Source: Bradyrhizobium sp. SZCCHNS1050
GTDB lineage: Bacteria; Pseudomonadota; Alphaproteobacteria; Rhizobiales; Xanthobacteraceae
Direction of reading: 5' to 3'
Length of the DNA stretch: 64,000 nucleotides
Assembly: GCF_032484785.1 (NCBI RefSeq)
Contig: NZ_JAUETR010000001.1
Coordinates: 5,273,501 to 5,337,500, forward strand
The first letter of the stretch is position 1. Each line of letters starts with the position of its first letter. The notes beneath the pieces were generated by a model. It saw only the letters and a program-made list of their open reading frames with translations, ran no database searches and was not told where the DNA came from. A program made the translations under genes and the position numbers. This document shows positions 5,374-46,937 of the stretch, piece after piece.

Positions 5374-5425
5374 GCGTCTTCGGCCCGAGGGGCGGGGAGA
5401 CCATGGCGGAGCATCTGTCGTGCTC

Positions 5426-5507: not shown

Positions 5508-5520
5508 GGGAGCAAGTGAA

Positions 5521-8819: not shown

Positions 8820-8849
8820 GGCGATATGTTCAATTGCCTGCTCTGCGTC

Positions 8850-8996
8850 GTTGTGTTCGCGGCGCGTAGCGAAGCCATCTAGAGTCCCGTCCGAGGCCCC
8901 TGGATCGCGTCGCTGCGCTCGCGATGACAGCGTTCGTGGAAGGCGCGGTGTCCGCCACAACCGTCATTGCGAGCGCAGCGAAGCAATCCAGGGGCC
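8850..8996. repeat. Palindromic repeat cluster, cgtcattgcgag type
   Basis: One clear inverted pair: ggcccctggatcgcgtcgc... at 8895-8928 and cgtcattgcgagcgcagcg... at 8962-8996. A more degenerate half-unit with tagcgaagccatctagag precedes it near 8866-8884. It fills the gap between the convergent livF and potC-like genes, where it could serve as a two-way terminator. Confidence 0.75.
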
Positions 8997-9061
8997 AAGG
9001 CAAAGTTCTCTTTGGCTAAGATGTCGAGCAACAGCGGCGACTGTTCGGTCAGCCGCCGCGG

Positions 9062-9964: not shown

Positions 9965-9965
9965 C

Positions 9966-10901: not shown

Positions 10902-10950
10902 GTGGGGAAACCTGTCGTCCGGTGCGGATGTTTCGAAACGTCTGAGACGA

Positions 10951-10984
10951 GCTGCCGCGCCCACGACGTCGCGGGCGCGGCAGC
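10951..10984 (-). terminator. Intercistronic hairpin between binding-protein and permease genes
   Basis: gctgccgcgccc at 10951-10962 and gggcgcggcagc at 10973-10984 form a perfect 12-bp inverted repeat with a 10-base loop. There is no T-run after it on the minus strand, so it is more likely an mRNA-stabilising or partial-attenuation hairpin than a full terminator. Its place just after the binding-protein stop codon would allow more binding protein than permease, as known for malE-malF type operons. Confidence 0.7.
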
Positions 10985-10997
10985 AATGGCGGTCACA

Positions 10998-12287: not shown

Positions 12288-12322
12288 GATCATCTCCTTG
12301 GGAAAGAACGAGCAAACGAAAA

Positions 12323-13390
12323 TCAGGTGACCAGCTCCGCAGCCGGAGCGGCTGCGGCAGGGCGGGGCGTCAGTGCGTCAGCGAAGGCCATGTTCCAGGT
12401 GACGACGACGCGCTCGCCGATGCTGTGGGTCTGTGCATCGAACTGATCGTCGCTGAGCTGCGCCGAGATCTCGGGGCCACCGTCGGTCGCGACCGCGACC
12501 AGCACATAGGTGCCCTGATATTCGATCTTGCTGATAGTGCCGGGCACCACCGGGCCGTCGATCGCCGCATTCGGCGCCTTGAGCTGGATGCGGTCGACGC
12601 GCACGGCGAAGGTCTCGCCGTTCAGCGGGATCACGTTGTGGCCGCCGATGAAGCGGGCGGCGAATTCGGTGCGCGGATGATTGAAGATGTCGCGCGGGCT
12701 GCCCTGCTGCTCGATGCGGCCGCCATTCATCAGCACCACGAGGTCGGACAGCGCCATGGCCTCGTCCTGGCCATGGGTGACGTGAACGAAGGTGAGCCCG
12801 AGCTCGCGCTGCAGTCGCTTCAGCTCGGCGCGCATGCGCAGGCGCAGGAACGGGTCGAGCGCCGACAGCGGCTCGTCGAGCAGCAGGATCTGCGGCGAGG
12901 TGATCAGCGCACGGGCCAGCGCCACGCGCTGCTGCTGGCCGCCGGAAAGCTGCGCCGGCAGGCGGCCAGCATAGCTCTGCATGTCCACCAGTTCGAGCAG
13001 CTCGCGTGCCTTGGCGTGGCGCTCGGGCTTGGACACGCCTTTCATCTTCAATGCAAACGCGACGTTGTCGATCACCGACAGATGCGGAAACAGCGCATAG
13101 GACTGGAACATCATCGCGGTGCCGCGTCCTGCGGGCGGCAGCTCGGTCACGTTCCTGGCGCCGACGATGATGTCGCCCGACGTCGCGGATTCGTGGCCGG
13201 CGATCATGCGCAGGGTGGAGGTCTTGCCGCAGCCGGACGGGCCGAGCAGACAGCAATAGGAGCCGGCGGGAATCCGCAGGTCGATTGCGTCGACGGCGGT
13301 GACGTGACCGTACATCTTCGTCACCTTCACCAGTTCCAAGCTCGCGCCCGCCGCCATCCGCCCTCCGTCGTCCTGTCCCGTGTCGGTCAT
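12323..13390 (-). CDS. PotA-like ABC transporter ATP-binding protein
   Basis: 355 residues from ATG 13390; the frame remains open 22 codons upstream, but the downstream start gives the usual length. Walker A G-P-S-G-C-G-K-T-S-T, Q-loop M-F-Q-S-Y-A-L-F-P, signature L-S-G-G-Q-Q-Q-R, Walker B L-L-L-D-E-P-L-S-A-L-D and switch His in V-T-H-G-Q-D-E-A are all intact. The C-terminal 110 residues form the TOBE/OB regulatory domain (residues about 260-345). It is the first gene of the pot-like operon, 35 bases before the binding-protein gene. The C-terminus is Ala/Pro-rich. Confidence 0.93.
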   Translation of the reverse strand: MTDTGQDDGGRMAAGASLELVKVTKMYGHVTAVDAIDLRIPAGSYCCLLGPSGCGKTSTLRMIAGHESATSGDIIVGARNVTELPPAGRGTAMMFQSYALFPHLSVIDNVAFALKMKGVSKPERHAKARELLELVDMQSYAGRLPAQLSGGQQQRVALARALITSPQILLLDEPLSALDPFLRLRMRAELKRLQRELGLTFVHVTHGQDEAMALSDLVVLMNGGRIEQQGSPRDIFNHPRTEFAARFIGGHNVIPLNGETFAVRVDRIQLKAPNAAIDGPVVPGTISKIEYQGTYVLVAVATDGGPEISAQLSDDQFDAQTHSIGERVVVTWNMAFADALTPRPAAAAPAAELVT

Positions 13391-13642
13391 GATCGCAGCT
13401 CGCTCCGTCGGGCGCCCGCGATCCGGCCCGTCTGATGTCTGCAACGGATATGCCAAGGGTCGCCGTGGGCGCGGAGCAGCGCGTGAAAATTGCGCGCTGG
13501 ATGAGATGCGTATGCAACGCTCGAAAGGGCATTCCCCGGTCCCGGCGTCAGTCCGCTCAGATGGGCCGCCGATCCGGCCAAACAGCCGCGCCCACGCCGA
13601 TGTGGAGGCATTTTGCCCTGTCCTTTCGTGCTCCGGGCGTGC
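13391..13642. other. Upstream region of the pot-like operon, no recognised gene
   Basis: I see no protein I recognise here on either strand; the open frames that cross it lack a convincing start and show arginine-rich shadow composition. The promoter of the pot-like operon probably lies in this stretch, but no clear -35/-10 pair or operator was found by eye. Confidence 0.4.
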
Positions 13643-13783
13643 TCAGCGATAGGCTGCAATCGATGGTGGAAGAGCGGGGCGCATCCTCGCGCCGCGGCAG
13701 CGATGAGCTGCCGGTGTTGTCCTTGCTCGACCGATCCGTCCCTGATTGCTACCGAAGTCGCACTTTGCCTGAATATTAGGCAT
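13643..13783 (-). CDS. Possible 46-residue small ORF with strong ribosome binding site
   Basis: ATG at 13783 is preceded by GGGAGGACAACG, an excellent ribosome binding site with about seven bases spacing. The frame starts M-P-N-I-Q-A-K-C-D-F-G-S-N-Q-G-R and ends after 46 codons. The second half is Arg/Ala-rich and looks non-selected, so this may be the 5' stub of a gene truncated by deletion or frameshift. The start codon sits inside a short palindrome (TGCCT-N7-AGGCA at 13767-13783), which could be an operator. Function unknown; it may equally be a leader for the pot-like operon. Confidence 0.3.
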   Translation of the reverse strand: MPNIQAKCDFGSNQGRIGRARTTPAAHRCRGARMRPALPPSIAAYR

Positions 13784-32227: not shown

Positions 32228-33427
32228 ATGATCGACAGACGTGATCTGCTCAAGGGAGCAGGGCTGGCGGCGCTGCTGGGCGGGTTTGGCGCGACTCGCG
32301 CGCTGGCCGAGGACACCGTGACGTTGCCCTTCGCCAACGGCGAGCGCCCGCTGGTGAAGTATCCGCAGAAGCGGCCGATGATCGGCCTGACCAGCCGGCC
32401 GCCGCAACTCGAAACGCCATTCGGGGTGTTCAATGACGGCGTGATCACGCCGAACAATGCCTTCTTCGTCCGCTATCATCTGGCGGGCCTGCCTTACGAT
32501 CTCGATCCGGACAGGTTCACGCTCGCGATCAAGGGGAAGGTCGACAAGCCGCTCAAGCTGTCGCTCAAGGACATCCGGAAGATGAAGGCGACCGAGATCG
32601 TCGCCGTCAACCAATGCTCCGGCAACAGCCGCGGCTTCTTCGAGCCGCGCGTCGCAGGTGGCCAGCTTGGCAACGGCGCCATGGGCAATGCGCGCTGGCG
32701 GGGCGTGCCGCTCAAGACCGTGCTCGACATGGCGGGCGTCCAGGCCGGCGCCAGACAGGTCACCTTCGGCGGCATGGACGGACCGGTGATCGACAAGACG
32801 CCGGACTTCGTCAAGGCGCTCGACCTCGATCACGCCATGAATGGCGAGGTGATGCTGGCCTACGGCATGAACGGCGAGGATCTGCCGTTCCTCAACGGCT
32901 TTCCGTTGCGCCTGATCGTGCCCGGCTATTACGGCACCTACTGGGTCAAGCACCTCAACGAGATCACCGTCATCGACAACGTGTTCGACGGCTTCTGGAT
33001 GAAATCGGCCTATCGAATTCCAGACACGCCGAACAACGCCGTCGAGCCCGGCACCACACCGAGAGCGACGATCCCGATCAACCGCTTCACGGTCCGCTCG
33101 TTCATCACCAGCCTGGCCGATGGCGCGAAGCTCAAGGCGGGCAGGGCGGTGCTGCGCGGCATCGCATTCGACGGCAGGGCGGGAATCAAGCAGGTCGCGG
33201 TCTCGACCGACGGCGGCAAGACCTGGACCGACGCCAAGCTCGGCAGGGATCTCGGGAAATATTCCTTCCGCGAGTGGAAGCTGGCGGTGAAGCTTGCCGC
33301 GGGATCCCACGATCTCAAGGTGCGTGCCACCAGCAATTCCGGCGAGACGCAGCCGGAGACGCCGCGCTGGAATCCGGCCGGCTATCTGCGCAACGTCATC
33401 GAAACCGTCCGCGTCACGGCGGCCTGA
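32228..33427 (+). CDS. sorA: Sulfite dehydrogenase molybdenum subunit SorA-like
   Basis: 399 residues with a Tat signal (M-I-D-R-R-D-L-L-K-G-A-G, cleavage near A-L-A at 25-27), consistent with export of a folded molybdenum-cofactor enzyme. The oxidoreductase molybdopterin domain has N-Q-C-S-G-N-S-R-G, where Cys130 would ligate Mo, and P-G-Y-Y-G-T-Y-W-V-K-H-L-N-E-I near 235-250. A C-terminal immunoglobulin-like dimerisation domain follows (I-K-Q-V-A-V-S-T-D-G-G-K-T-W near 320). SorA oxidises sulfite to sulfate in the periplasm and passes electrons to SorB, whose gene follows 12 bases later. Confidence 0.92.
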   Translation: MIDRRDLLKGAGLAALLGGFGATRALAEDTVTLPFANGERPLVKYPQKRPMIGLTSRPPQLETPFGVFNDGVITPNNAFFVRYHLAGLPYDLDPDRFTLAIKGKVDKPLKLSLKDIRKMKATEIVAVNQCSGNSRGFFEPRVAGGQLGNGAMGNARWRGVPLKTVLDMAGVQAGARQVTFGGMDGPVIDKTPDFVKALDLDHAMNGEVMLAYGMNGEDLPFLNGFPLRLIVPGYYGTYWVKHLNEITVIDNVFDGFWMKSAYRIPDTPNNAVEPGTTPRATIPINRFTVRSFITSLADGAKLKAGRAVLRGIAFDGRAGIKQVAVSTDGGKTWTDAKLGRDLGKYSFREWKLAVKLAAGSHDLKVRATSNSGETQPETPRWNPAGYLRNVIETVRVTAA

Positions 33428-34935: not shown

Positions 34936-35769
34936 TCAGGGCAGGGCCGCTGCGCCGTTGGTCACGATCAGATTGTCGGTGTCTGCCGGGGCCAGTTCGC
35001 TCGTCGCATCGCCACCGAGATATTTGTCGAGCGTCGCCTGGATCCGTTCCCGCGCCGTGTAGGGGCCGCGGTCGCTCATCCAGGTGTGCTGGAACTCGGT
35101 CTTGATGATGTCGATGCCGCTCTTCTTGTCGACATGCGTTGGCAGCACGCCGGGGTCGGTCTTGAACTGCGGATCATCCGAGCGGAACGACAGGATCTTG
35201 AGCTTGTCCCTGATGACGAAAGGAACGCGCAGATTGTCGAGCGTCACCACCTGCGAGACGATGTTCGGATGCTCCTTGGCGAAATACATCGCGGTATCGC
35301 CGCCATTGGAGTGGCCGACCAGGGTCAGGTGATCGTAGTCGGCATTCGGATGACGCTTCTTCATCTCGTTCAGCACGCAGAGGATGTTGGCCTCGCCTTT
35401 CCGGTAGACGTCGAGCCGGCCGACATAAGGCATCCCGACCTTGGTGACGAGCGGCGGATCAGTCGGAAGGTCCTGCTGGACGCTGGCGACAAGGTAGCCG
35501 CGCGCGGCGAACACGTTCGCGAGGAAGGAGTACTCGGTGTTCTTCACTGTGTTGCCGTTGCTGATGATGGCGACCGGCAGCCGCCACAGCCCGGCATTGG
35601 CCTTCATCTCGTAGTCCTTGCGCACGGCGACATCGACATTGATCGACCGCTGCCGCGCGGCATCGAAGAACTCGCGGCTTTCGTGCTGAATGCCCCATTT
35701 GGCCATTGCAAAGTAACCGGCCACAGCCAGGGCAGACACACAGGCCAAAACCGTCACACCGCGCTTCAT
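34936..35769 (-). CDS. Membrane-anchored or exported alpha/beta hydrolase
   Basis: 277 residues from ATG 35769, preceded by AAGGAAGG. An N-terminal hydrophobic segment (about 5-22) acts as signal peptide or anchor. The alpha/beta-hydrolase core has the nucleophile elbow G-H-S-N-G-G-D (Ser near residue 147), an upstream oxyanion/strand region V-A-I-I-S-N-G-N-T, and plausible Asp and His further on (F-Q-H-T-W-M-S-D near 240). The family includes dienelactone hydrolases, lipases and PET-hydrolase-like enzymes. Substrate unknown. It stands alone, with a hairpin at its end. Confidence 0.82.
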   Translation of the reverse strand: MKRGVTVLACVSALAVAGYFAMAKWGIQHESREFFDAARQRSINVDVAVRKDYEMKANAGLWRLPVAIISNGNTVKNTEYSFLANVFAARGYLVASVQQDLPTDPPLVTKVGMPYVGRLDVYRKGEANILCVLNEMKKRHPNADYDHLTLVGHSNGGDTAMYFAKEHPNIVSQVVTLDNLRVPFVIRDKLKILSFRSDDPQFKTDPGVLPTHVDKKSGIDIIKTEFQHTWMSDRGPYTARERIQATLDKYLGGDATSELAPADTDNLIVTNGAAALP

Positions 35770-35935
35770 GGTATCCTTCCTTGGACGTCTCTCCGTTATG
35801 TGATGGAAGACAACGCCCGGGTCACGGGGGTGTGGCAGCCAGGGGTGGATTAAATTTCCGAAATCTTGCAGTGCAGCACGGGAACAATCCGCGGTTGGTG
35901 AACCGGCGCGCCGGCTCACCTCCCACTGCGAGGAG

Positions 35936-36715
35936 TCAGAATGCGGTATAGCCGCCGTCGATCACGAGGCAGTCTGCGGTGTGATAGGACGACGCCTTGC
36001 TCATGAGGTAGACGGCGATGCCGCCGAAATCCGACGGCTCGCCGAAGCGGCGCACCGGGATACGCGGCATGACGTTGGCAACGAACTTCTCGTTTCCCAT
36101 GATGCCTGCGGTCATGTCGCTCTTGATCCAGCCAGGCAGGATCGCATTCGCGGTGACGCCGTGGCGTGCGAGTTCGACGGCGAGCGCGCGGCACAGCGCA
36201 TTGATTGCCGCCTTGGTTGCCGCATAGTGCTCGTTCCGCGCGGTGCCGAACAGCGAGGCGAGGCTCGAGGTCGCGACCAGGCGGCCGAACGGATCGCCGG
36301 CTTCGGCGCGCGCGGTCATGTGCTTGGCGGCGGCCTGGAAGGCATGGAAGACGCCGTCGAGATTGGTCGCGAACATTGTGCGCCATTCCTCCTCGCTGCG
36401 CTCGATGAAGGGCTTGCGGCCGCCGCCGCCGATGCCGGCGTTGGCAAAGCAGCCGTCGACGCGACCGAAGGTGTCGAGTGTCGCCTTCATCGCCTCGTTG
36501 ACGGACGCAGGGCTCGTCACGTCGCAGACATGGGTATCGACCCTGCCGGGCCCCGCGGCCATCGACGCCGCAGCCGCCTTGTTCTTCTCGGCGTTGCGGC
36601 CCCAGATCGAGACGTTGCAGCCACTGGACGCAAGTGCCTGGGCGATTCCGAGGCCTATGCCTCCATTGCCGCCGGTGACGACGGCCACACGGCCGGTGAG
36701 GTCGAACATGCTCAT
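35936..36715 (-). CDS. Short-chain dehydrogenase/reductase
   Basis: 259 residues. Classical SDR: cofactor loop T-G-G-N-G-G-I-G near residues 15-22, N-A-G near 90, catalytic Ser in S-S-L-A-S and Y-A-A-T-K near 163-167, and P-G-W-I-K-S-D after the active site. The Arg-Asn pair after the second strand suggests NADP. It diverges from the crotonase/kinase operon at 36894, sharing a 178-bp promoter region. By analogy with the P. putida lva set it could reduce or oxidise a 4-oxo/4-hydroxyacyl group, but this rests on context only. Confidence 0.92.
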   Translation of the reverse strand: MSMFDLTGRVAVVTGGNGGIGLGIAQALASSGCNVSIWGRNAEKNKAAAASMAAGPGRVDTHVCDVTSPASVNEAMKATLDTFGRVDGCFANAGIGGGGRKPFIERSEEEWRTMFATNLDGVFHAFQAAAKHMTARAEAGDPFGRLVATSSLASLFGTARNEHYAATKAAINALCRALAVELARHGVTANAILPGWIKSDMTAGIMGNEKFVANVMPRIPVRRFGEPSDFGGIAVYLMSKASSYHTADCLVIDGGYTAF

Positions 36716-36893
36716 GGGGTTCTCTTGGGCGTTTCCGTGATGATGTGAGCGCGCTGCGCGCCGCTTCGGTTATTGGGATGATCCAACCATGGACAAGCGA
36801 AGCGCAAAAATCAAATATGCTGACAGAACCATGCCGCGCTTCAAATTTCCGCGGCGAAGAATGCACTGACCGAAAAGCTCTTGAGAGGAAAAC

Positions 36894-37688
36894 ATGCAGT
36901 TCAAGCACGTCACGCTCGATTTCGACGGGCCCGTCGCCGTCCTCACGCTCGATCATCAGGAGGTCATGAACGCGGTCTCGATCGACATGCTTGGCGGGCT
37001 CGCCGAGGCGCTCGACGAGATCGAGGAGAAGAAGGCCGAGGTGCGCTGCCTGGTCGTAACCGGCGCGGGGCGGGCGTTCTGCACCGGTGCCAATCTGCAG
37101 GGCCGCAATGCGCAGGCGAAGCCCGGCCGCAGCAATGCCGGCGCCGCGCTCGAGACCGCCTTTCATCCGTTCCTGCGCCGCTTGCGCAATCTGCATTGCC
37201 CGATCGTGACGTCGGTCAACGGCCCGGCCGCCGGTGCTGGCATGAGCTTCGCGCTGATGGGCGACATGATCCTGTGCGCGAAGTCCGCGTATTTCCTGCA
37301 AGCCTTCCGCCGCATCGGTCTCGTTCCCGACTGCGGCTCGACCTGGCTGTTGCCGCGCCTCGTCGGCAAGGCGCGCGCGATCGAGCTGTCGCTGCTCGGC
37401 GAGAAGCTGCCGGCCGAGACGGCACTGCAATGGGGCCTCGTCAACCGCGTCTATGACGATGCGGCCCTCAAGGAGGAAACGATGAAGCTCGCGCGCGAGC
37501 TCGCCAACGGGCCGACGGTGGCGCTGGCGCAGATCCGCAAGCTTTACTGGGACAGCCCGGAGAACTCGTTCGAGGAGCAGCTCAACGCCGAATTCCAGTC
37601 GCAGCGCATCGCGGGCGGCACGTCGGATTTCAAGGAGGGCGTCACCGCGTTCCTCGAAAAGCGCCCGGCCAAGTTCAAGGGCCAATGA
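36894..37688 (+). CDS. Enoyl-CoA hydratase/isomerase, PaaG-like
   Basis: 264 residues, crotonase fold. The oxyanion-hole segments are A-F-C-T-G-A-N-L near 60-68 and G-P-A-A-G-A-G-M-S-F-A-L near 107-118. The later F-L-Q-A-F-R-R-I-G-L-V-P-D-C-G-S-T-W-L-L-P is the PaaG-like pattern, with an Asp as catalytic acid rather than the paired Glu of ordinary hydratases, which favours isomerisation of a double bond. It is the first gene of an operon and overlaps the next gene (kinase) by four bases. Confidence 0.9.
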   Translation: MQFKHVTLDFDGPVAVLTLDHQEVMNAVSIDMLGGLAEALDEIEEKKAEVRCLVVTGAGRAFCTGANLQGRNAQAKPGRSNAGAALETAFHPFLRRLRNLHCPIVTSVNGPAAGAGMSFALMGDMILCAKSAYFLQAFRRIGLVPDCGSTWLLPRLVGKARAIELSLLGEKLPAETALQWGLVNRVYDDAALKEETMKLARELANGPTVALAQIRKLYWDSPENSFEEQLNAEFQSQRIAGGTSDFKEGVTAFLEKRPAKFKGQ

Positions 37689-38674
37689 TCGAGGCCAAGC
37701 TGTCGCGCTGCGTCGCCTCGTTCATGCCGGGGGCGACTGGCGTGCGCGGCGCCGCGAAACTCTCCGGCGGCGCCAGCCAGGAGACGTGGCGCTTCGACAT
37801 CGTCCATCCCGGTGGTGATGTCGGCGCCATCCTGCGCCGCTCGCCGAAGGGCTACGGCGCCGCGCCCGGGCGTGCCGCCGGGCTCGACAACGAGGCGGCG
37901 CTGATGCGGCTCGCTTGTGCGGCCGGCGTGCCGTCGCCCGAGGTACTGCACGTGCTACGGCCGGAGGACGATCTCGGCGCCGGTTTCATCATGCGCCGCG
38001 TCGAGGGCGAGACCATCGCGCGCAAGATCCTGCGCGATGCTGAATTCGCCGAGGCGCGGCCGCGCCTCGCGCGCCAGCTCGGCGGCATCGCTGCCGGCAT
38101 CCACGGGATTCGACGCGAGACGCTGCCCGCGTTGCGCGAGATGAACGCGACCAGGGAGATCGCGGAGCTCGCGCGCGAATATCAAAGCTTCGACTGGCCG
38201 CGCCCGGTGTTCGATCTCGCGCTGCGCTGGCTGTCGCACAACGATCCCGGCCCCTCGGCGGAGGTGACGCTGGTGCATGGCGATTTCCGCAACGGCAATC
38301 TCATCATCGGCCCCGACGGGGTGCGCGCTGTGCTCGACTGGGAGCTCGCCCATCTCGGCGATCCCATGGAGGATCTCGGCTGGATCTGCGTCAACTCCTG
38401 GCGCTTCGGCGAGATCGACAAGCCCGTCGGCGGCTTTGGCTCGCGCGAGGAGCTGTACGCGGGCTACGAGGCCGCTGGCCGCAAGGTCGATGCCGGCAGG
38501 GTGAAGTTCTGGGAGGTCATGGGCACGTTGCGCTGGGGCGTGATGTGTTGCGGCATGATGCAGCGGTTTCGCTTGGGTCCCGACCACTCGATGGAGCGCG
38601 CCATGATCGGCCGCCGCGCGTCGGAGACAGAGATCGATCTGCTGCGGCTGCTGGCGCCGAGAGGAGAGGGCTGA
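37685..38674 (+). CDS. Aminoglycoside-phosphotransferase-like acyl-CoA kinase (LvaA / ACAD10-11 kinase type)
   Basis: 329 residues. The kinase core shows the Brenner motif L-V-H-G-D-F-R-N-G-N-L-I-I (catalytic Asp near 200, metal-binding Asn near 204) and the D-W-E-L-A-H-L-G-D-P-M-E-D-L-G-W motif near 218-233, typical of the acyl-CoA-dehydrogenase-associated kinase branch. In human ACAD10/11 this domain is fused to an acyl-CoA dehydrogenase; in P. putida LvaA it phosphorylates 4-hydroxyacyl-CoA. Here it is followed at once by a DUF6285 protein and, 1.6 kb on, by an acyl-CoA dehydrogenase. A true antibiotic kinase is unlikely. Confidence 0.9.
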   Translation: MIEAKLSRCVASFMPGATGVRGAAKLSGGASQETWRFDIVHPGGDVGAILRRSPKGYGAAPGRAAGLDNEAALMRLACAAGVPSPEVLHVLRPEDDLGAGFIMRRVEGETIARKILRDAEFAEARPRLARQLGGIAAGIHGIRRETLPALREMNATREIAELAREYQSFDWPRPVFDLALRWLSHNDPGPSAEVTLVHGDFRNGNLIIGPDGVRAVLDWELAHLGDPMEDLGWICVNSWRFGEIDKPVGGFGSREELYAGYEAAGRKVDAGRVKFWEVMGTLRWGVMCCGMMQRFRLGPDHSMERAMIGRRASETEIDLLRLLAPRGEG

Positions 38675-39060
38675 TGCAGGACGAACCGACGGCGACGGAG
38701 CTGGCGAAGGCGGTCGCGGATTTCCTGCGCACCGACATCGCGCCGCTGATCTCCGGGCACCCGGCGTTCAAGCTGCGCGTGGGAATCAACGCGCTCGATC
38801 TGGTGGTGCGGCAGTTGACGCAGGCTGCTCCGGCGGATGCCGCGGAGCACGCGCGGCTGAAACAGCTATTGAGACGAGACGGTGACTTGCTCGAACTGAA
38901 TCGTGCGCTTTCCGAGCAGATCGCCAGTGGTGCCGTCGATCTCGGCACGCCGGGCCTGAAGGACCACCTCTGGCAGACCACGCTCGACAAGCTCGCTGTC
39001 GATCAGCCCAACTACGCGTCCTACAGGCGCGAGGCGGGGAGGGGCACCAGCGATGCTTAG
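38674..39060 (+). CDS. DUF6285 small protein, likely partner of the kinase (LvaB-like)
   Basis: 128 residues. Its start overlaps the kinase stop (TGATG), so the two are translationally coupled. Helical, with E-L-A-K-A-V-A-D-F-L-R-T-D-I-A-P near the N-terminus, F-K-L-R-V-G-I-N-A-L-D-L-V-V-R-Q near 40-55 and a late L-W-Q-T-T-L-D-K-L-A-V-D-Q-P-N-Y. I recall this family next to APH-like kinases, and the small protein LvaB being needed for LvaA activity in P. putida. The family name DUF6285 and this equivalence are from memory and not tested here. Confidence 0.8.
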   Translation: MQDEPTATELAKAVADFLRTDIAPLISGHPAFKLRVGINALDLVVRQLTQAAPADAAEHARLKQLLRRDGDLLELNRALSEQIASGAVDLGTPGLKDHLWQTTLDKLAVDQPNYASYRREAGRGTSDA

Positions 39061-39068
39061 CTCTCCGC

Positions 39069-39155
39069 CGTCATTGCGAGGAGCGCCAGCGCCGAAGCAA
39101 TCCAGACTGCTTCGGCGGTGGGACTCTGGATTGCTTCGCTTCGCTCGCAATGACG
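39069..39155. repeat. REP-like palindrome, cgtcattgcgag type
   Basis: Starts cgtcattgcgagg and ends cgctcgcaatgacg, with internal aagcaatccaga and tctggattgctt arms. It matches the element at 5426-5507. It lies just after the DUF6285 gene. Confidence 0.88.
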
Positions 39156-39192
39156 GCGGCGGGAGCTGGACAGGCGTTGCGATCACCTCGGC

Positions 39193-39290
39193 CGTCGTCC
39201 CGGGGCGCGACGCAGTCGCGAGCCTGGAATCCAGACTCCCGTTCGTGGTCACGGATTCCGGGCGCGCGCTCCGCGTGTCCCGGAATGATC
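39193..39290. repeat. Palindromic repeat, cgtcgtcccggg / cccggaatgat type
   Basis: Starts cgtcgtcccgggg and ends cgtgtcccggaatgatc, with inner cctggaatccaga and acggattccggg arms. It is related to the copies at 45219 and 56702. It is placed directly after the previous repeat, between convergent genes. Confidence 0.75.
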
Positions 39291-39304
39291 ACCTTGGCGA
39301 TGCG

Positions 39305-40084
39305 CTACCGCCCCAGCCATTTCGGCGGTCGCTTCTCGGAAAACGCCTTCGGCCCCTCAATATAGTCCTGCGAGTGGATCATCGCCTGCACCGCCGCGTA
39401 GTCGCGCTGCTCGGTGATGGCCTGCTCCAGCGACACCGCGAGGCCCTTCTCGATCGCCTGTTTGGAGGCGCGGATCGACATCGGCGAGTTCTTGGCGATG
39501 GTCTCGGCCCAACGCTCCGCGGCCGCCAGCGCCTCGCCCTGCGGTACGACCTCGTTGACGAAGCCGAGCTCGTGGCCCTCGCGGGCGCCGACGTGGCGGC
39601 CGGTCAGGATCATGCCCATCGCGCGCTTCAGGCCGATCTGGCGCGGCAGCCGCTGCAGCCCGCCGGCGAGCGCGGCGAGGCCGACGCGCGGCTCGGGCAA
39701 CGCGAAGGTCGCGTTCTCGGAGGCGATGATCAGGTCGCAGGCCAGCGCGATCTCGAAGCCGCCGCCCATCGCAACGCCGTTGACGGCCGCGATCAGCGGC
39801 TTGTCGCAATCGAAGCGCGAGGTCAGTCCACCGAAGCCGCTTTTGCCCCAGCCACGCGCGCCGCCGGCCGCCTGCCATTTCAGATCGTTGCCGGCGCAGA
39901 ATGCCTTGTCGCCCTCGCCGGTGACGATCGCCACCCATTGCTCGGGATCGGCGGCGAAGCCGTCGAACACGCGCTCGAGCTCGTAATGCGCCTCGATGTG
40001 CAGGGCGTTGTAGACCTCGGGGCGCGCCAGGGTGACGATCGTGATCGGCCCCTTGCGCGTCACTCTCGAAAACTTCAGCTCCAT
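39305..40084 (-). CDS. Enoyl-CoA hydratase / CaiD-like crotonase
   Basis: 259 residues, crotonase fold. F-C-A-G-N-D-L-K-W near 60-68 and N-G-V-A-M-G-G-G-F-E-I-A-L-A-C-D near 105-120 form the oxyanion hole. A-L-P-E-P-R-V-G-L-A-A-L-A-G-G near 132-146 carries the first catalytic Glu. The pattern resembles carnitinyl-CoA dehydratase CaiD and ordinary hydratases. It is transcribed divergently from the acyl-CoA dehydrogenase gene, whose enoyl-CoA product it could hydrate. Confidence 0.9.
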   Translation of the reverse strand: MELKFSRVTRKGPITIVTLARPEVYNALHIEAHYELERVFDGFAADPEQWVAIVTGEGDKAFCAGNDLKWQAAGGARGWGKSGFGGLTSRFDCDKPLIAAVNGVAMGGGFEIALACDLIIASENATFALPEPRVGLAALAGGLQRLPRQIGLKRAMGMILTGRHVGAREGHELGFVNEVVPQGEALAAAERWAETIAKNSPMSIRASKQAIEKGLAVSLEQAITEQRDYAAVQAMIHSQDYIEGPKAFSEKRPPKWLGR

Positions 40085-40250
40085 CGGCCGTTCCTCCTGT
40101 TTTCTGATTGGTTGTCGCGCATCAACTTAGCGCCTGCGCAGGTGTCGCAGTCATCCAAATACGCAACGGCGCTGCGCGCCACAAGCGCGCGACGGGAGGT
40201 CGCGCCCATCAGGACCAAGAACAACAACGAAACGCACAGGGAGACACGCC

Positions 40251-41525
40251 ATGGATTTTTCCTTGCCGAAGGAATTGGTCGCCTACCTCGACGAGCTCGA
40301 TCGCTTCATCGCCGCCGAGATCAAGCCGCTGGAGCAGGCCGACGACAACATCCGCTTCTTCGATCATCGTCGCGAATGGGCGCGCACCGATTTCGAGAAT
40401 GGCGGCCTGCCGCGGCATGAGTGGGAGCAGCTGCTGCGCAAGGCCAAGGATCGTGCCGACGCGGCCGGGCACCTGCGCTTCGCGATCCCAAAACGCTACG
40501 GCGGCAAGGACGGCTCGAACCTCTGGATGGCGGTGATCCGCGAGCATTTCGCCTCGAAGGGCCTCGGCCTGCACAACGACCTGCAGAACGAGCACTCGAT
40601 CGTCGGCAATCTGCCGATCGTCACCATGCTCGACCGCTATGGCCGCGACGACCAGAAAGCGATGATCGACGGCTCGATCACCGGCAAGTACCGCATCACC
40701 TTCGGTCTCACCGAGCCGCATCACGGCTCGGACGCAACCCACATGGAGACGAAGGCCGTCCCAGCCACCCGCGACAACGTCAAGGGCTGGCTGATCAACG
40801 GCGAGAAGATGTGGACGACGGGAATGCACGTCGCCACCCATTGCGCGCTGTTCGCGCGCACCTCGGGCAATGACGGCGATGCGCGCGGCATCACCTGCTT
40901 CCTGGTGCCGGCCAAGAGCGAGGGCGTCAAGGTCGAGGAGTATCTCTGGACCTTCAACATGCCGACCGACCATCCGCGGGTCAGCTTCACCGACGTGTTC
41001 GTGCCGGAGGATGCGCAGTTCGGCGAAGTCGGTCGCGGCCTGTCGCTGGCGCAGTGCTTCGTGCACGAGAACCGCATCCGGCAGGCGGCGAGCTCGCTCG
41101 GTGCGGCCGTATTCTGCATCAATGAGAGCGTGAACTACGCGCGTGAGCGCAAACCGTTCGGAAAGGCGCTGGCCGAGAACCAGGCGATCCAGTGGCCGCT
41201 GGTCGAGCTGGCGACGCAGGCCGAGATGCTGCGGCTGCTGATCCGCAAGACCGCCTGGGAGATGGACCAGCTCACCCAGGCGCAGGTCGAGCACACACTC
41301 TCCGACAAGGTCTCGATGTGCAACTACTGGGCTAACCGTCTGTGCTGCGAGGCGGCCGATCGCGCCATCCAGGTTCATGGCGGCATGGGCTATTCGCGCC
41401 ACAAGCCGTTCGAGCACATCTACCGCCACCACCGCCGCTACCGCATCACCGAAGGCAGCGAGGAGATCCAGATGCGCAAGGTGGCGGGCTTCCTGTTCGG
41501 GTATATGGGGGTGAACAAGAGGTGA
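40251..41525 (+). CDS. Acyl-CoA dehydrogenase (ACAD11/LvaC-like context)
   Basis: 424 residues, somewhat longer than the common 380-residue enzymes. FAD-binding and active-site patterns are seen: I-T-F-G-L-T-E-P-H-H-G-S-D near 145-158 (FAD/substrate loop), W-L-I-N-G-E-K-M-W-T-T-G near 178-189, and the C-terminal V-H-G-G-M-G-Y-S-R-H-K-P-F-E-H-I-Y-R-H-H-R-R-Y (in two pieces) with I-T-E-G-S-E-E-I-Q, the family's FAD-contact and catalytic-Glu region. Normally it makes enoyl-CoA from acyl-CoA. Near an APH-like kinase and DUF6285 it could instead eliminate phosphate from a 4-phosphoacyl-CoA. Confidence 0.9.
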   Translation: MDFSLPKELVAYLDELDRFIAAEIKPLEQADDNIRFFDHRREWARTDFENGGLPRHEWEQLLRKAKDRADAAGHLRFAIPKRYGGKDGSNLWMAVIREHFASKGLGLHNDLQNEHSIVGNLPIVTMLDRYGRDDQKAMIDGSITGKYRITFGLTEPHHGSDATHMETKAVPATRDNVKGWLINGEKMWTTGMHVATHCALFARTSGNDGDARGITCFLVPAKSEGVKVEEYLWTFNMPTDHPRVSFTDVFVPEDAQFGEVGRGLSLAQCFVHENRIRQAASSLGAAVFCINESVNYARERKPFGKALAENQAIQWPLVELATQAEMLRLLIRKTAWEMDQLTQAQVEHTLSDKVSMCNYWANRLCCEAADRAIQVHGGMGYSRHKPFEHIYRHHRRYRITEGSEEIQMRKVAGFLFGYMGVNKR

Positions 41526-41548
41526 GGCGGTTGTAGTTTGAAGGCGGC

Positions 41549-41686
41549 CATCGTGAGCGTCAGCCAGCAATCCAGACCTTGTTGTTTGGCCCCTGGATTG
41601 CTTCGGCGCAAGGGCGCCTCGCAATGACGGCGTGGAAGGAGCGTACCCTCTCTCCACGCCATCGCGAGCGTGGCGAAGCGATCCAG
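41549..41686. repeat. Palindromic repeats, cgtcattgcgag type (one unit plus half-unit)
   Basis: One unit at 41549-41630 has catcgtgagcg at the left, inner cagcaatccaga and ctggattgcttc arms, and cctcgcaatgacgg at the right. A half-unit ccatcgcgagcgtggcgaag lies at 41659-41678 and beyond. They sit between the convergent acyl-CoA dehydrogenase and acyl-CoA ligase genes. Confidence 0.75.
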
Positions 41687-41714
41687 AATGTCTCAGCGAG
41701 CACCTCGTTCTTGA

Positions 41715-43295
41715 TCAATTCACCTGCCGATCCTTGCCCGCCCAGTACGGGTCGCGCAGATTCCGCCGCAGGATCTTGCCGGAGGGATTGCGCGGCAGGG
41801 CGTCGAGGAAGTCCACGCTCTTCGGCGTCTTGAAGCCGGCGATGCGGGTGCGGGTGAAATTGATGATGTCGGTCTCGGTGGCGCGCTTGCCGGGCTTCAT
41901 CACGACGATCGCCTTGACGGCCTCGCCCCATTTCTCGTCGGGAATGCCGATCACGGCGGCCTCGGCGACATCGGGGTGGTCGCAGATCGCGCTCTCGACC
42001 TCGGCCGGATAGATGTTCTCGCCGCCGGAGATGATCATGTCCTTGATGCGGTCGTGGATGTAGACGTAGCCGTCCTCGTCCATGTAGCCGGCATCACCCG
42101 TGCGCAGCCAGCCGTCCTTACCGAGCGTGCGTGCGGTCGCCTCCGGCAGGTTCCAGTAGCCGGTCATGTTGGAGCCGGAGCGGGTGGCGATCTCGCCGAC
42201 CTGCCGCGGCGGCAGCGGGTTGCCCGAGGGATCGATGATCGCGACTTCGACGCCCGGCAGCGGCTTGCCGGCCGAGCGCATCCGCTCCAGCCCTTCGACG
42301 TGATCCTCGGGCGGCAGCGCGATGATGGTGCCCGTGGTCTCGGTCATGCCGTACATCTGCACGAAGCCGCATTTGAACACCTCGATGCATTCCTTCAGCA
42401 GCGCCGCCGGGATCGGCGAGGCGCCGTAGAGCATGTATTTGAGCCGCGAGAAGTCGACCTGCCGCGCTCGCGGCTGCCGGACCACGAACTGCATCGCGGC
42501 GGGCACCATGAACAGCTTGGTGATGCCGGACTGTTCGAAGAAGTCGAGGATCTTCGTGGGATCGAACTCGCGCGCGATCACGCCGCGGGCGCCGTGGTAA
42601 AGGCTCATCAGGCCCCAGCCGGAGCCGCCGATGTGGAAGATCGGCATCGCGATCAGCGAGACGTCGTCGGTCGTCCATTTATTCCAGTCCGGCTTCTCCT
42701 CGGGATTGCCGGTGTTGACGAGGTTGAGGAAGTTGGCGTGCGACAGCATCGCGCCTTTCGGCTTGCCGGTGGTGCCGGAGGTGTAGAGCTGCAGCGCGAT
42801 GTCCTGCGGCGTGATCGCCTCGCCGGGATCGTCGGCGCTCTGCGCGTCGCGCCAAGCCGTGTAGTCCTGCCATTCCGGCGCGCCGCCTTCGGTGGTGATG
42901 ATGTGCCGCACGCTCGGAATCTGGTCGCGGATGTTGCGGATCATCGTGACGAACTCGGGACCGACGAACAGGGCAGGCGCCTTGCAGTCCTCGACGATGA
43001 AGGCGACCTCGGGACCGGCGAGGCGCCAGTTCACCGGCGCCATCACGACGTTGGCCTTCATGGCGCCGACCAGCAGCTCGAAATAGATGTCGCTGTTCTT
43101 GCCGAAATAGGCGATCCGCTCATGCGGCTTGATGCCGATCGCCTTCAGCGCGTTGGCAACCTGGTTGGTCTTGCGGTCGAATGCGGCGAAGCTGGTGAGG
43201 CGGCCTTCGAACTCATAGGCGGTGGCGGAGCCAAGCGCTTCCGCCTGCCTGCGCACGACGTCGACGAGCGTCGACGCTGCCGTCGTGACGGACAT
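41715..43295 (-). CDS. Acyl-CoA synthetase (AMP-forming, fatty-acid CoA ligase type)
   Basis: 526 residues from ATG 43295, preceded by GGAGGGGAAAC; sequence upstream in the same frame is not conserved. ANL-superfamily motifs in order: Y-T-S-G-T-T-G-K-P-K-G (P-loop-like, near 170), Q-M-Y-G-M-T-E-T-T-G near 315, W-L-R-T-G-D-A-G-Y near 395, the hinge D-R-I-K-D-M-I-I-S-G-G-E-N-I-Y-P near 415-430, and G-K-I-L-R-R with the catalytic C-terminal Lys near 512. It activates a carboxylic acid to acyl-CoA. It is the last gene of a minus-strand pair with the SDR at 43428 and could feed the kinase/dehydrogenase pathway. Confidence 0.93.
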   Translation of the reverse strand: MSVTTAASTLVDVVRRQAEALGSATAYEFEGRLTSFAAFDRKTNQVANALKAIGIKPHERIAYFGKNSDIYFELLVGAMKANVVMAPVNWRLAGPEVAFIVEDCKAPALFVGPEFVTMIRNIRDQIPSVRHIITTEGGAPEWQDYTAWRDAQSADDPGEAITPQDIALQLYTSGTTGKPKGAMLSHANFLNLVNTGNPEEKPDWNKWTTDDVSLIAMPIFHIGGSGWGLMSLYHGARGVIAREFDPTKILDFFEQSGITKLFMVPAAMQFVVRQPRARQVDFSRLKYMLYGASPIPAALLKECIEVFKCGFVQMYGMTETTGTIIALPPEDHVEGLERMRSAGKPLPGVEVAIIDPSGNPLPPRQVGEIATRSGSNMTGYWNLPEATARTLGKDGWLRTGDAGYMDEDGYVYIHDRIKDMIISGGENIYPAEVESAICDHPDVAEAAVIGIPDEKWGEAVKAIVVMKPGKRATETDIINFTRTRIAGFKTPKSVDFLDALPRNPSGKILRRNLRDPYWAGKDRQVN

Positions 43296-43427
43296 GTTTC
43301 CCCTCCGATTGCGTCTTGTTCTTTGTTCGATGTCTTGTCGTGGTCCTCGCCCCGGATTGCGCCGGAGCAAGCATCTCTCGATCAGTCTACAGGGAGCAGA
43401 TCGCCGATCAACAGGGTGATTGCGCCA

Positions 43428-44303
43428 TCAGCTCGTGCGCGTCGCGCGATCCTTTTCGTTCTGCGCCTTGATCGACTCCTTGGCCTTGGTCCAGTCGTCG
43501 TCGCTCCAGTCGCGCAGCTGATAGAAGTTGCCGCCCATCGCCAGCGCCTGGGCACCGTCCATCGCGATTGTCTCGCCGTTGATCCAGTTGCAGCCGCCGG
43601 AGATCAGGAACACCGCGAGGTTCTGCAGCTCCTCCATGGTGCCGACCCGACCCATCGGGTTCATCGCCTTGGTCCGCGCGCCGGCCTCGTCACCGGGCTT
43701 GATGCGCTTGCTCATGCCTTCGGTCGGGATTTCGCCGGGTGCGATGGTGTTGAGGCGGATGCCGTAGCGGCCCCATTCAGTCGCGAGCGACATCGTCATG
43801 GCGTGGATCGCCGACTTGCTCATCGCCGAGGGCACCACGTAAGGCGAGCCGTTGCGCACCCAGGTTACCGTGATCGAGACGACGTTGCCCGGCTGCTTCG
43901 CGGCGATCCAGCGCTTGCCGACGGCGTGCGTCACGTAGAACGTGCCGTGCATCACGATGTTGGCGACCGCGTCGAAGCCGCGCGGGCTCAATTCCTCGGT
44001 GCGGGAAATGAAGTTGCCGGCCGCGTTGTTGATGAGATCGGTGAGACCGCCTTCCTGGAAGATGGCCTCGATCATGTCCTCCACCGCCATGGCATTGCGG
44101 ATGTCGACGCCATGGCTGGCCACACGGCCGCCGTAGAGGTCCATGAGTTCGGTCGCGGTCTCGTCGCAGACGATTTTCCGCCGGCCGCAAATATGCACTT
44201 CGGCGCCGAGTTGCAGGAAGCGTGCAGCCATCGCTTTGCCAAGGCCCGTGCCGCCGCCGGTCACCAGAATGCGTCGACCTTCGAGGAGATTGTCCTTGAA
44301 CAT
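43428..44303 (-). CDS. SDR of the 2,4-dienoyl-CoA reductase type
   Basis: 291 residues. The cofactor loop is T-G-G-G-T-G-L-G near 15-22, with N-N-A-A-G-N near 92. The usual Y-x-x-x-K is S-A-M-S-K, with Ser where Tyr is normal; the dienoyl-CoA reductase (DECR/FadH-SDR) branch is known to use a different Tyr and keep the Lys. Together with its acyl-CoA neighbours this supports reduction of a 2,4-dienoyl-CoA or similar thioester. It diverges from the crotonase at 44406, with a near-palindrome between them. Confidence 0.87.
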   Translation of the reverse strand: MFKDNLLEGRRILVTGGGTGLGKAMAARFLQLGAEVHICGRRKIVCDETATELMDLYGGRVASHGVDIRNAMAVEDMIEAIFQEGGLTDLINNAAGNFISRTEELSPRGFDAVANIVMHGTFYVTHAVGKRWIAAKQPGNVVSITVTWVRNGSPYVVPSAMSKSAIHAMTMSLATEWGRYGIRLNTIAPGEIPTEGMSKRIKPGDEAGARTKAMNPMGRVGTMEELQNLAVFLISGGCNWINGETIAMDGAQALAMGGNFYQLRDWSDDDWTKAKESIKAQNEKDRATRTS

Positions 44304-44334
44304 GGGAGTTTCCGCCTGACATGTTGTGAGTTAA

Positions 44335-44350
44335 TTGGTCGATTGACTAA
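44335..44350. promoter_or_regulatory. Candidate operator TTGGTC-N4-GACTAA in divergent promoter
   Basis: In the 102-bp gap between divergent SDR and crotonase genes, TTGGTC (44335-44340) and GACTAA (44345-44350) form an inverted repeat with one mismatch around a four-base centre, in an AT-rich stretch. Size and symmetry suit a TetR-family repressor of acyl-CoA genes. No such regulator gene is in the window. Confidence 0.4.
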
Positions 44351-44405
44351 ATCGCTCCGACAGCCTTCTGTAAAGTCACAAAGACATCCGTAGGGAGACC
44401 GCTCG

Positions 44406-45215
44406 ATGGACAACCGCCTCGCGATCGAGATCAAGGACGGCGTCGCCGATGTTCGCCTGGTTCGCGCCGACAAGATGAATGCGTTGGACATGGAGATGTT
44501 CGAGGCGCTGGTCGCGGCGACCGACCGGCTGTCGAAGGAGAAGGGCCTGCGGGCGGTGGTGCTGTCCGGCGAGGGCCGCGCCTTCTGCGCTGGCCTCGAC
44601 ATGGGCCGCTTCGCGGCGATGAAGGATTCCGGCGGCAACGGCATACCCGGCGGCGAGAAGCGCGACCTCACCGTTCGCACCCACGGCAAGGCCAACTTCG
44701 CGCAGCAAGCGGTATGGGGCTGGCGGCAGTTGCCGGTGCCGGTGATTGCTGCAGTGCATGGCGTCGCCTATGGCGGCGGCTTCCAGCTCGCACTCGGCGC
44801 CGACATGCGCTACGTCGCGCCGGACACCAAGATGTCGATCATGGAGATCAAGTGGGGTCTGGTGCCCGACATGGCGGGCACGCCGATCCTGGCCACCCTG
44901 ATGCGCGACGACATCCTGCGCGAGCTGACCTACACGGGCCGGGTGTTCTCGCCGGAGGAAGGCCAGTCCTACGGCCTCGTCACCCGCATCTGCGCCGATC
45001 CGCGCGCGGCTGCGCTGGAGACCGCGCGTGAGATCGCCGGCAAGAATCCGGATGCGATCCGCGCCGCCAAGCGGATGCTGAACAATCTCTCGGTCGATCC
45101 GGGGCCGGCGCTGCTCGCCGAATCGGTCGAGCAGCAGAAGCTGATCGGCAGCCCGAACCAGCTCGAATCGGTGCGCGCCAACATCGAGAAGCGCGCGCCG
45201 AAGTTTGCGGACTGA
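44406..45215 (+). CDS. Crotonase/enoyl-CoA hydratase family protein
   Basis: 269 residues. G-R-A-F-C-A-G-L-D-M-G near residues 56-66 and H-G-V-A-Y-G-G-G-F-Q-L-A-L-G-A-D near 116-131 form the oxyanion hole; K-M-S-I-M-E-I-K-W-G-L-V-P-D-M-A-G-T near 140-157 carries Glu and Asp at the catalytic positions. Substrate not clear from sequence. It diverges from the dienoyl-CoA reductase-like gene and is followed by a repeat and an acyl-CoA synthetase on the same strand. Confidence 0.9.
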   Translation: MDNRLAIEIKDGVADVRLVRADKMNALDMEMFEALVAATDRLSKEKGLRAVVLSGEGRAFCAGLDMGRFAAMKDSGGNGIPGGEKRDLTVRTHGKANFAQQAVWGWRQLPVPVIAAVHGVAYGGGFQLALGADMRYVAPDTKMSIMEIKWGLVPDMAGTPILATLMRDDILRELTYTGRVFSPEEGQSYGLVTRICADPRAAALETAREIAGKNPDAIRAAKRMLNNLSVDPGPALLAESVEQQKLIGSPNQLESVRANIEKRAPKFAD

Positions 45216-45218
45216 GTC

Positions 45219-45350
45219 CGTCATTCCGGGATGCTCCGAAGGAGCAGGCCCGGAATCTCGAGATTCTCCGGTGCGCAACTGCGCACCTGAGTTCGATGCT
45301 CCGCGCAAAACGGCACCGCCGTTTTGTCGCGGCGCATCGCCCCGGATTGA
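45219..45350. repeat. Palindromic repeat, cgtcattccggg type, with internal hairpin
   Basis: Starts cgtcattccgggatgc and carries gcccggaatct in the inverse sense. An exact 9-bp inverted repeat caaaacggc / gccgttttg lies at 45306-45326. The right end is catcgccccggattgatgg. It is related to the copies at 39193 and 56702. It lies between the crotonase and acyl-CoA synthetase genes. Confidence 0.7.
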
Positions 45351-45392
45351 TGGCGGAAACTCAAACCGACGCCAGATCGGATAACAAAGAAA

Positions 45393-46937
45393 ATGGAAAC
45401 GTCCTCCCTGTTCTGCGGCATCATCTCCGGCGAGCGCCGGCGCAGCCACGCCGAAATCGCCGACCGCGCCGCGCGGATCGCCAGCGGCCTCGCGCAACTC
45501 GGCGTACGCCAGGGCGATTGCGTCTGCATGCTGATGCGCAACGACATCGCCTTCATCGAGGCGGCCTATGGCGCGATGCGGCTGGGCGCCTATGGCGTGC
45601 CGGTGAACTGGCACTTCAAGCCGGAGGAGATCGACTACATCCTCAAGGACTCCGCGACGCGCGTGCTGATCGGTCACGCCGATCTGCTGCATCAGCTTCG
45701 CGGCCTGATTCCACCTGGAGGCACCGTGCTCAGCGTGCCGACGCCGCCGGAGATCCTGTCCAACTACAAGATCGACGCGGATCTGCTCGCAACACCGGAG
45801 TTCGCGACCGACCTGGAAAGCTGGCTGACACAGCAGAGCCCGTACGAGGGGCCGCAGGTGCCGCAGCCGCAGAACATGATCTACACCTCCGGCACGACCG
45901 GTCATCCCAAGGGCGTCCGCCGCAGTGCGCCGACGGTGGAGCAGGCCGCCTCGGCCGAGCGCATGCGCGCGTTGATCTACGGGCTGAAGCCGAACGCGCG
46001 CGCGCTGCTGCCGGGGCCGCTGTATCATTCGGCGCCGAACGCCTTCGGCCTGCGGGCGGGCCGGCTCGGCGGCGCGCTGGTGCTGATGCCGCGCTTCGAG
46101 CCGGAGGCGTTTCTCGACGTCATCCAGACAGAGCGGATCGATACCATCTTCATGGTGCCGACCATGTTCATCCGGCTGATGAAGCTGCCGGAGGAGGTTC
46201 GCCGCCGCTACGACGTCTCGTCGTTGCGCCATGTCATTCACGCTGCCGCGCCGTGCCCGGCCGACGTCAAGCGCGCGATGATCGACTGGTGGGGGCCGGT
46301 CATCTACGAGTTCTACGGCTCGACCGAATCCGGTGCCGTGACCTTCGCGACCTCCGAGGACGCGCTGCGCAAGCCCGGCACCGTCGGCAAGGTCTCGCCG
46401 GGCGCGGAGCTGCGCTTTCTCGGCGAGGACGGTCGCATCCTGCCGCAGGGCGAGATCGGCGAGATCTATTCGCGCATCGCGGGCAATCCGGATTTCACCT
46501 ATCACAACAAGCCGGAGAAGCGTGCCGAGATCGACCGCGACGGCTTCATCACCTCGGGCGATGTCGGCTACATCGATGCCGAGGGCTACGTCTTCCTGTG
46601 CGACCGCAAGCGCGACATGGTGATCTCTGGCGGCGTAAACATCTATCCCGCCGAGATCGAAGCCGTGCTGCATGCCGTGCCCGGCGTGCATGATTGCGCC
46701 GTGTTCGGCATCCCAGATGCCGAGTTCGGAGAAGCCCTGATGGCCGTGGTCGAGCCGCAGCCGGGCGTGACGCTTGACATTGGGGAGATGAGGGCCCGGC
46801 TGAGAGCGTCGCTGGCCGATTACAAGGTGCCCAAGCACATCGAGATCCACGAGAAGCTGCCGCGCGAGGACTCCGGCAAGATCTTCAAGCGGCGGCTGCG
46901 CGATCCCCATTGGGAGCAGGCGGGGCGGAAAATATGA
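45393..46937 (+). CDS. Acyl-CoA synthetase (AMP-forming), second copy
   Basis: 514 residues. ANL motifs: Y-T-S-G-T-T-G-H-P-K-G-V near 166-177, E-F-Y-G-S-T-E-S-G near 308, F-I-T-S-G-D-V-G-Y near 385, D-R-K-R-D-M-V-I-S-G-G-V-N-I-Y-P near 403-418 and the C-terminal G-K-I-F-K-R-R near 500. The N-terminal domain is a little short compared with long-chain ligases, and the ribosome binding site upstream of ATG 45393 is weak, so the start is less sure. It is clearly different from the ligase at 41715 and probably has another chain-length or structural preference. Confidence 0.9.
   Translation: METSSLFCGIISGERRRSHAEIADRAARIASGLAQLGVRQGDCVCMLMRNDIAFIEAAYGAMRLGAYGVPVNWHFKPEEIDYILKDSATRVLIGHADLLHQLRGLIPPGGTVLSVPTPPEILSNYKIDADLLATPEFATDLESWLTQQSPYEGPQVPQPQNMIYTSGTTGHPKGVRRSAPTVEQAASAERMRALIYGLKPNARALLPGPLYHSAPNAFGLRAGRLGGALVLMPRFEPEAFLDVIQTERIDTIFMVPTMFIRLMKLPEEVRRRYDVSSLRHVIHAAAPCPADVKRAMIDWWGPVIYEFYGSTESGAVTFATSEDALRKPGTVGKVSPGAELRFLGEDGRILPQGEIGEIYSRIAGNPDFTYHNKPEKRAEIDRDGFITSGDVGYIDAEGYVFLCDRKRDMVISGGVNIYPAEIEAVLHAVPGVHDCAVFGIPDAEFGEALMAVVEPQPGVTLDIGEMRARLRASLADYKVPKHIEIHEKLPREDSGKIFKRRLRDPHWEQAGRKI

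Follow-up and report, generated by a model that had tools for sequence, protein, structure and literature searches.

A kinase–DUF6285–acyl-CoA dehydrogenase module in Bradyrhizobium and its possible role in removing hydroxyl groups from acyl chains

Introduction

Enzymes that remove hydroxyl groups from C4 were identified only recently, in mammals as ACAD10 and ACAD11 and in pseudomonads as products of the lva genes. A block of ten genes in Bradyrhizobium sp. SZCCHNS1050 raises the question of whether phospho-activation of hydroxy acids can lead into more than one downstream chemistry. The block lies in the 64-kb stretch of DNA analysed here, hereafter the window, within a 7.6-Mb genome, and its core comprises an APH-fold kinase, a DUF6285 protein and an acyl-coenzyme A (acyl-CoA) dehydrogenase (ACAD, 40251-41525) of a type that we name P3, as distinct from the LvaC/ACAD11 type with its HCMR motif and Asp base. 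An original prediction made from the DNA alone described the block as a possible rhizobial version of lvaABCDE, the levulinate operon of Pseudomonas putida KT2440 reportedly described by Rand et al. in 2017. Here we find that kinase, DUF6285 and P3 ACAD make up a conserved module that quite possibly works in the manner of lvaABC but with a different ACAD; the partnership of kinase and ACAD is well supported by sequence comparison, and we hypothesize that the chemistry is split over several enzymes.

Results

We examined 45 DUF6285 loci, 40 chosen from matches in a class sample of genomes and 5 from plasmids, and found a kinase like that of the window adjoining DUF6285 in all 45, the two sharing a single fused frame in seven. 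Among the 289 genomes of the class sample, DUF6285 occurs in 66 and the P3 ACAD, called present at E ≤ 1e-120, in 41, and DUF6285 accompanies P3 in 40 of 41 genomes versus 26 of 248 genomes without it (Fisher p 3e-30, kinship ignored). Counted by family, 23 of 24 P3 families encode DUF6285 (101 families with known labels; the exception is f126), and the two genes co-vary within families f14, f20, f44, f92 and f94. Genomes with DUF6285 and no P3 number 26, and at least 19 of them, counted by eye, have an HCMR-profile ACAD beside DUF6285. In a phylum-level sample (398 genomes, partly shared with the class sample), DUF6285 occurs in 29 of 30 P3 genomes, and the exception (G565) encodes a fused kinase and DUF6285 open reading frame (ORF) beside its P3 gene (L233).

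A scan of genomes with the P3 alignment placed the module in named organisms. Among the best 80 P3 loci, about half of which are from Bradyrhizobium and near kin, 63 include both the kinase and DUF6285 within the retrieved stretch and one carries a kinase without a DUF6285 match. The Bradyrhizobium group shows the arrangement of the window, an opposite-strand crotonase separating DUF6285 from the ACAD, and the block is kept across many Bradyrhizobium records; in Chelatococcus, Vineibacter, Novosphingobium, Erythrobacter, Sphingopyxis and a metagenome-assembled genome (MAG) of Ectothiorhodospiraceae, the ACAD directly follows a kinase-DUF6285 pair that is often fused. Because the three genes associate far outside the genus and the block is kept within it, their grouping reflects more than chance. 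The expectation of a rhizobial version is too narrow in range, since the module also occurs in sphingomonads, roseobacters, Nocardia and, without DUF6285, haloarchaea. DUF6285 is retained, together with ACADs of both the P3 type and the HCMR profile, in several small genomes (G049, G174, G270, ~1.4 Mb; G018, G249, 1.7 Mb), so the module may act on a commonly encountered substrate.

Mobile and archaeal loci extend this distribution. A Sulfitobacter plasmid carries all three genes, and on a Nocardia farcinica plasmid DUF6285 (56 bits with our own profile) is followed by the kinase and then P3. In three haloarchaea the kinase adjoins the P3 ACAD, and the partner position is occupied by an ORF of 157-159 aa (L199 8287-8766, L200 8283-8756, L198 6403-6882). 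None of these ORFs gave a DUF6285 match; they may have taken its place without sharing its ancestry, or they may be relatives that have diverged far from it. The haloarchaeal pair at L199 stands amid genes for hydantoinase/oxoprolinase, an acetone carboxylase gamma subunit and an acetoacetate decarboxylase-family protein (1533-6841 and 9997-13748), which are a possible hint to its substrate.

The ACAD is where the module departs from lva. In mouse ACAD11, R626, H634 and R637 hold the substrate phosphate and D753 is the base, according to excerpts of PMC12440821. Alignment of six proteins of the window type with eight HCMR-type ACADs places F270, Q278, S281 and E401 of the window ACAD at these respective sites, so that the Asp base is replaced by Glu, the Arg equivalent to R626 by Phe and the HCMR motif by QAAS, the last in all six P3 proteins. 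Across 28 aligned P3 members F270 and Q278 are invariant, as are the Arg residues R40, R41, R45, R277 and R398; S281 is not fully so, and a stretch FDHRRE..RT is conserved together with RIRQA. Among ORFs from the fetched loci, near-copies included, the catalytic base is Glu in 111 of 111 P3 ORFs and Asp in 61 of 62 HCMR ORFs, with no residue assigned in the other. The P3 (support 100/100) and HCMR (100/99) proteins form separate clades; we are unsure whether the two are sister groups in this tree, which held few ordinary ACADs.

By sequence score the closest solved ACADs are caffeyl-CoA reductase CarC (E 6.9e-47) and the short- and medium-chain enzymes, from which FDHRRE..RT and RIRQA set the P3 clade apart; we know of no kinase partner of CarC. 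Placement with ACAD10/11 orthologues was likewise rejected, the window ACAD matching ACAD11 at E 2.4e-24 versus 5.8e-137 for a second ACAD on contig C2 of the same genome. The claim that the block's ACAD is LvaC-like thus fails on its Glu base, its missing HCMR motif and R626 equivalent, and its separate clade, leaving the block an lva-like variant by anatomy and not lva itself. Of the broader proposal of an lva-like module, what stands is the superfamily kinase, the small partner and the occurrence of such pairs beside HCMR ACADs in 11 of the 45 DUF6285 loci (P3 in 5, neither type in the remainder); what does not is an LvaC-like ACAD in the block, and the genome has a separate ACAD11-type pair on C2. 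Among the matches listed, the protein closest to the window ACAD is from Bradyrhizobium sp. SRS-191, at 98% identity.

The kinase retains the catalytic residues H198, D200, N205 and D218 (HGD..N, DWE), which are invariant in an alignment of 17 kinases, and with all protein kinase-like (PKL) catalytic residues present its assignment to the ACAD10/11-type kinase superfamily is supported. Its matches to solved structures include 3dxp (E 1.2e-15) and the ACAD11 kinase domain 8v3v (E 9.4e-12). Orthology with that domain was rejected, the latter score comparing with 1.3e-78 for the C2 kinase, and C2-type kinases form a separate branch of the kinase tree (support 100/100). DUF6285 adjoins the kinase as its predicted small partner, the two genes sharing 1 base as foreseen. 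Its structural model is all helix (pLDDT 88.5), no second DUF6285 gene was found in the genome, where the window match is the sole one, and no paper in the literature library searched names DUF6285. By size and position, DUF6285 is a candidate counterpart of LvaB, the 12-kDa partner of LvaA in the lva operon. Two loci carry a tandem pair of window-type kinases beside a single DUF6285 gene (L078 9380-11395, L082 7075-9105).

All ten genes of the block lie where the original prediction had placed them, as confirmed with Pfam and NCBIfam:

35936-36715, minus strand: short-chain dehydrogenase/reductase (SDR) oxidoreductase (PF13561, E 1.2e-60), divergent from the crotonase-kinase-DUF6285 run
36894-37688, plus strand: PaaG-type enoyl-CoA isomerase of the crotonase family (E. 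coli PaaG 4fzw_C, E 2.6e-66; NCBIfam PRK05981, 503 bits, cut-off 351)
37685-38674, plus strand: APH-fold kinase, named KINB (PF01636, E 1.8e-35)
38674-39060, plus strand: DUF6285 protein, 128 aa (PF19802, E 1.3e-30, 106.3 bits, cut-off 28.1)
39305-40084, minus strand: enoyl-CoA hydratase-like crotonase with two Glu (PF00378, E 4.4e-61; motifs GGGFE and LPEP)
40251-41525, plus strand: ACAD of the P3 clade (Glu base E401; RIRQAAS replaces RIHHCMR)
41715-43370, minus strand: acyl-CoA ligase, PRK06187 subfamily (657.7 bits, cut-off 476)
43428-44303, minus strand: 2,4-dienoyl-CoA reductase-like SDR (human DECR1 1w6u, E 7.8e-62; best NCBIfam match PRK07677, a 2,4-dienoyl-CoA reductase, at 235.4 bits, below its cut-off of 318)
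44406-45215, plus strand: crotonase PRK07509 (362.6 bits, cut-off 249; 4og1_A, E 1.5e-80)
45393-46937, plus strand: acyl-CoA ligase, PRK12406 subfamily (935.9 bits, cut-off 701)

Overlaps of 4 bases between the first crotonase and the kinase and of 1 base between the kinase and DUF6285 indicate that these three genes are probably one transcript; the ACAD gene lies on the same strand, beyond the convergent crotonase. The claim of a PaaG-type isomerase agrees with the best solved match of the first crotonase, E. coli PaaG, with which it aligns GLVPDCG against GLIPDCG, and it has no Glu at either of the positions that we take to be the hydratase Glu sites. In the crotonase at 39305-40084, GGGFE and LPEP presumably mark those same two sites, and this enzyme, with both hydratase Glu, is also among the block's candidate step enzymes.

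The contents of the block suggest how the module may operate. A ligase would load a hydroxy acid, or an oxo acid after reduction by an SDR, onto CoA, and the kinase-DUF6285 pair would phosphorylate its hydroxyl group, probably that on C4. Next, the bond between C2 and C3 would be dehydrogenated by the ACAD, acting as a conventional Glu/FAD enzyme with electron transfer flavoprotein (ETF) as its electron acceptor, the gamma-phosphate would leave to give a 2,4-dienoyl-CoA, and the 2,4-dienoyl-CoA reductase and PaaG-type isomerase could convert this to a 2-enoyl-CoA for beta-oxidation. In the cycle proposed for ACAD10, as given in excerpts of PMC11342911, a single enzyme converts 4-phosphoacyl-CoA to 4-phospho-2-enoyl-CoA and FADH2, releases phosphate to form 2,4-dienoyl-CoA and then reduces this with the same flavin to 2-enoyl-CoA. 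With a reductase of 2,4-dienoyl-CoA and an isomerase of the PaaG type both encoded in the block, separate proteins may here divide between them the cycle that ACAD10/11 would run as one enzyme.

Several observations weigh against a dedicated module of this kind. One genome, G125, has P3 without DUF6285; 16 of the best 80 P3 loci, some on short contigs, have neither kinase nor DUF6285 nearby, and one of these 16, L136, has 10 kb of upstream flank. Two plasmid loci (L201, L202) carry P3 without an adjacent window-type kinase, and the kinase-DUF6285 pairs of Cupriavidus and Variovorax (L042, L043) stand beside ACADs of neither type. Mapped on the kinase tree, the HCMR and P3 partner labels change three times each; kinases not sorted by ACAD partner may do the same reaction for both. 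HCMR-profile ACADs, counted by profile match at E ≤ 1e-120 and not by motif, occur anywhere in the genome in 40 of 41 P3 genomes versus 96 of 248 others. Linkage of the 2,4-dienoyl-CoA reductase to the triad is confined, among the loci inspected, to Bradyrhizobium and its close kin, which makes the wider scheme, with its putative hydroxyacyl-CoA substrate, weaker than the triad itself.

The prevalence of HCMR ACADs and the intermixing of kinases from the two partnerships point to an alternative, possible but doubtful in our estimate, in which the kinase and DUF6285 make a 4-phosphoacyl-CoA, an LvaC-type ACAD (HCMR, Asp base) encoded elsewhere removes the phosphate, and P3 catalyses a different reaction in that catabolic route. 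In 25 Bradyrhizobium records, and at L195, the P3 gene has an HCMR ACAD no more than 10 kb away, and the motif was confirmed in 26 of 26 of these neighbours above 200 bits (L142 has a partial HCMR ACAD at the end of its contig); each of 6 further Bradyrhizobium genomes sampled has an HCMR-profile ACAD about 8 kb or less from DUF6285. The Ectothiorhodospiraceae MAG locus L195 combines the two kinases and the two ACADs in a single series of genes (3649-11281: ACAD11-type kinase, SDR, HCMR ACAD, ligase, second kinase, DUF6285, P3 ACAD). Against this alternative, outside Bradyrhizobium and near kin the pair adjoins P3 with no HCMR ACAD match in the stretch, L195 excepted, and the HCMR ACAD of the window's own genome already has its own kinase. 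That ACAD, on contig C2, provides the sole exact HCMR match in the genome's DNA and adjoins the only other kinase found there with the window kinase as query; the pair resembles mouse ACAD11 (kinase E 1.3e-78, ACAD E 5.8e-137) and has no DUF6285 beside it. No HCMR ACAD was found near the P3 gene in the window or in several other records, among them L117, L118, L121, L122, L153 and L163. The links between the two ACAD types fit one shared catabolism as well as parallel pathways, and this is the main reason for retaining the alternative.

At L225 the HCMR ACAD sits between stretches matching window positions 34401 and 35936. The window has at this site, close to where other Bradyrhizobium carry an HCMR ACAD, a weakly hydrolase-like ORF (34936-35919), and nearby, in a stretch without an L225 match, a molybdopterin oxidoreductase (32228-33427). 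At L041 on a Thermus plasmid and L044 on an Azospirillum plasmid, HCMR ACAD, kinase and DUF6285 are followed by a histidine phosphatase gene; in P. citronellolis, too, such a gene neighbours the lvaA homologue.

It is unlikely that the kinase acts on some other alcohol, such as a terpenoid or steroid-like acid hydroxylated on a ring or at a tertiary carbon, with the ACAD and crotonases carrying out ordinary side-chain degradation. The related 25-hydroxysteroid kinase (25-HSK) of Sterolibacterium denitrificans (9fsg, 9ft5), also APH-like, phosphorylates an alcohol so that the phosphate can then be eliminated, which agrees with the chemistry proposed above for the module; in the excerpts of PMC8449060 its substrate is a steroid, no ACAD partner is named, and the eliminating lyase is described as unknown, with no candidate near the kinase gene. 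In sequence, the ACAD11 kinase (E 9.4e-12) is a somewhat closer match to the window kinase than 25-HSK is (E 8.4e-8). Slightly less probable still is an ordinary gene island for beta-oxidation of unsaturated fatty acids in which the kinase lies by chance: the 2,4-dienoyl-CoA reductase, isomerase and hydratases would suit such an island, but kinase, DUF6285 and P3 ACAD co-occur, adjoin or fuse across many families and kinase-ACAD links recur in haloarchaea, so that the explanation is contradicted for the triad and may hold for the flanking crotonases and ligases. Strict lvaABC orthology, with the block working exactly as in P. putida, is very improbable despite the same sorts of parts and the kinase-DUF6285 pairs beside HCMR ACADs elsewhere, being contradicted for the ACAD by its sequence (no Asp base, HCMR or R626 equivalent, and a poorer match to ACAD11 than to ordinary ACADs such as CarC) and opposed by the separate ACAD11-type pair in the genome.

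Discussion

The conserved kinase-DUF6285-ACAD module of the window shares with lvaABCDE a kinase, small partner, ACAD, SDR and ligase, and a CoA-bound hydroxy acid as the likely substrate, on the evidence of excerpts of PMC6692424 and PMC12440821. It differs in its Glu-base, non-HCMR ACAD, in the additional PaaG-type isomerase and 2,4-dienoyl-CoA reductase, and in having genes on both strands. Mammalian ACAD10 and ACAD11 (8v3u, 8v3v) likewise partner a kinase of the same superfamily with an ACAD, and ACAD11 has D753, R626, H634 and R637 where the window ACAD has E401, F270, Q278 and S281.

These comparisons suggest that fatty acids may lose hydroxyl groups by a second route, one not described before. 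In its fullest form, which we put forward tentatively and regard as rather doubtful, bacteria and haloarchaea would share an undescribed ATP-dependent dehydroxylation route made up of a kinase (in bacteria together with DUF6285), a Glu-type ACAD coupled to ETF, a 2,4-dienoyl-CoA reductase and an isomerase. If true, phospho-activation of hydroxy acids would have more than one downstream chemistry, and a likely role would be assigned both to DUF6285 and to the large P3 clade, whose members bear generic names among the 120 rows listed (acyl-CoA dehydrogenase, butyryl-CoA dehydrogenase, AidB-like).

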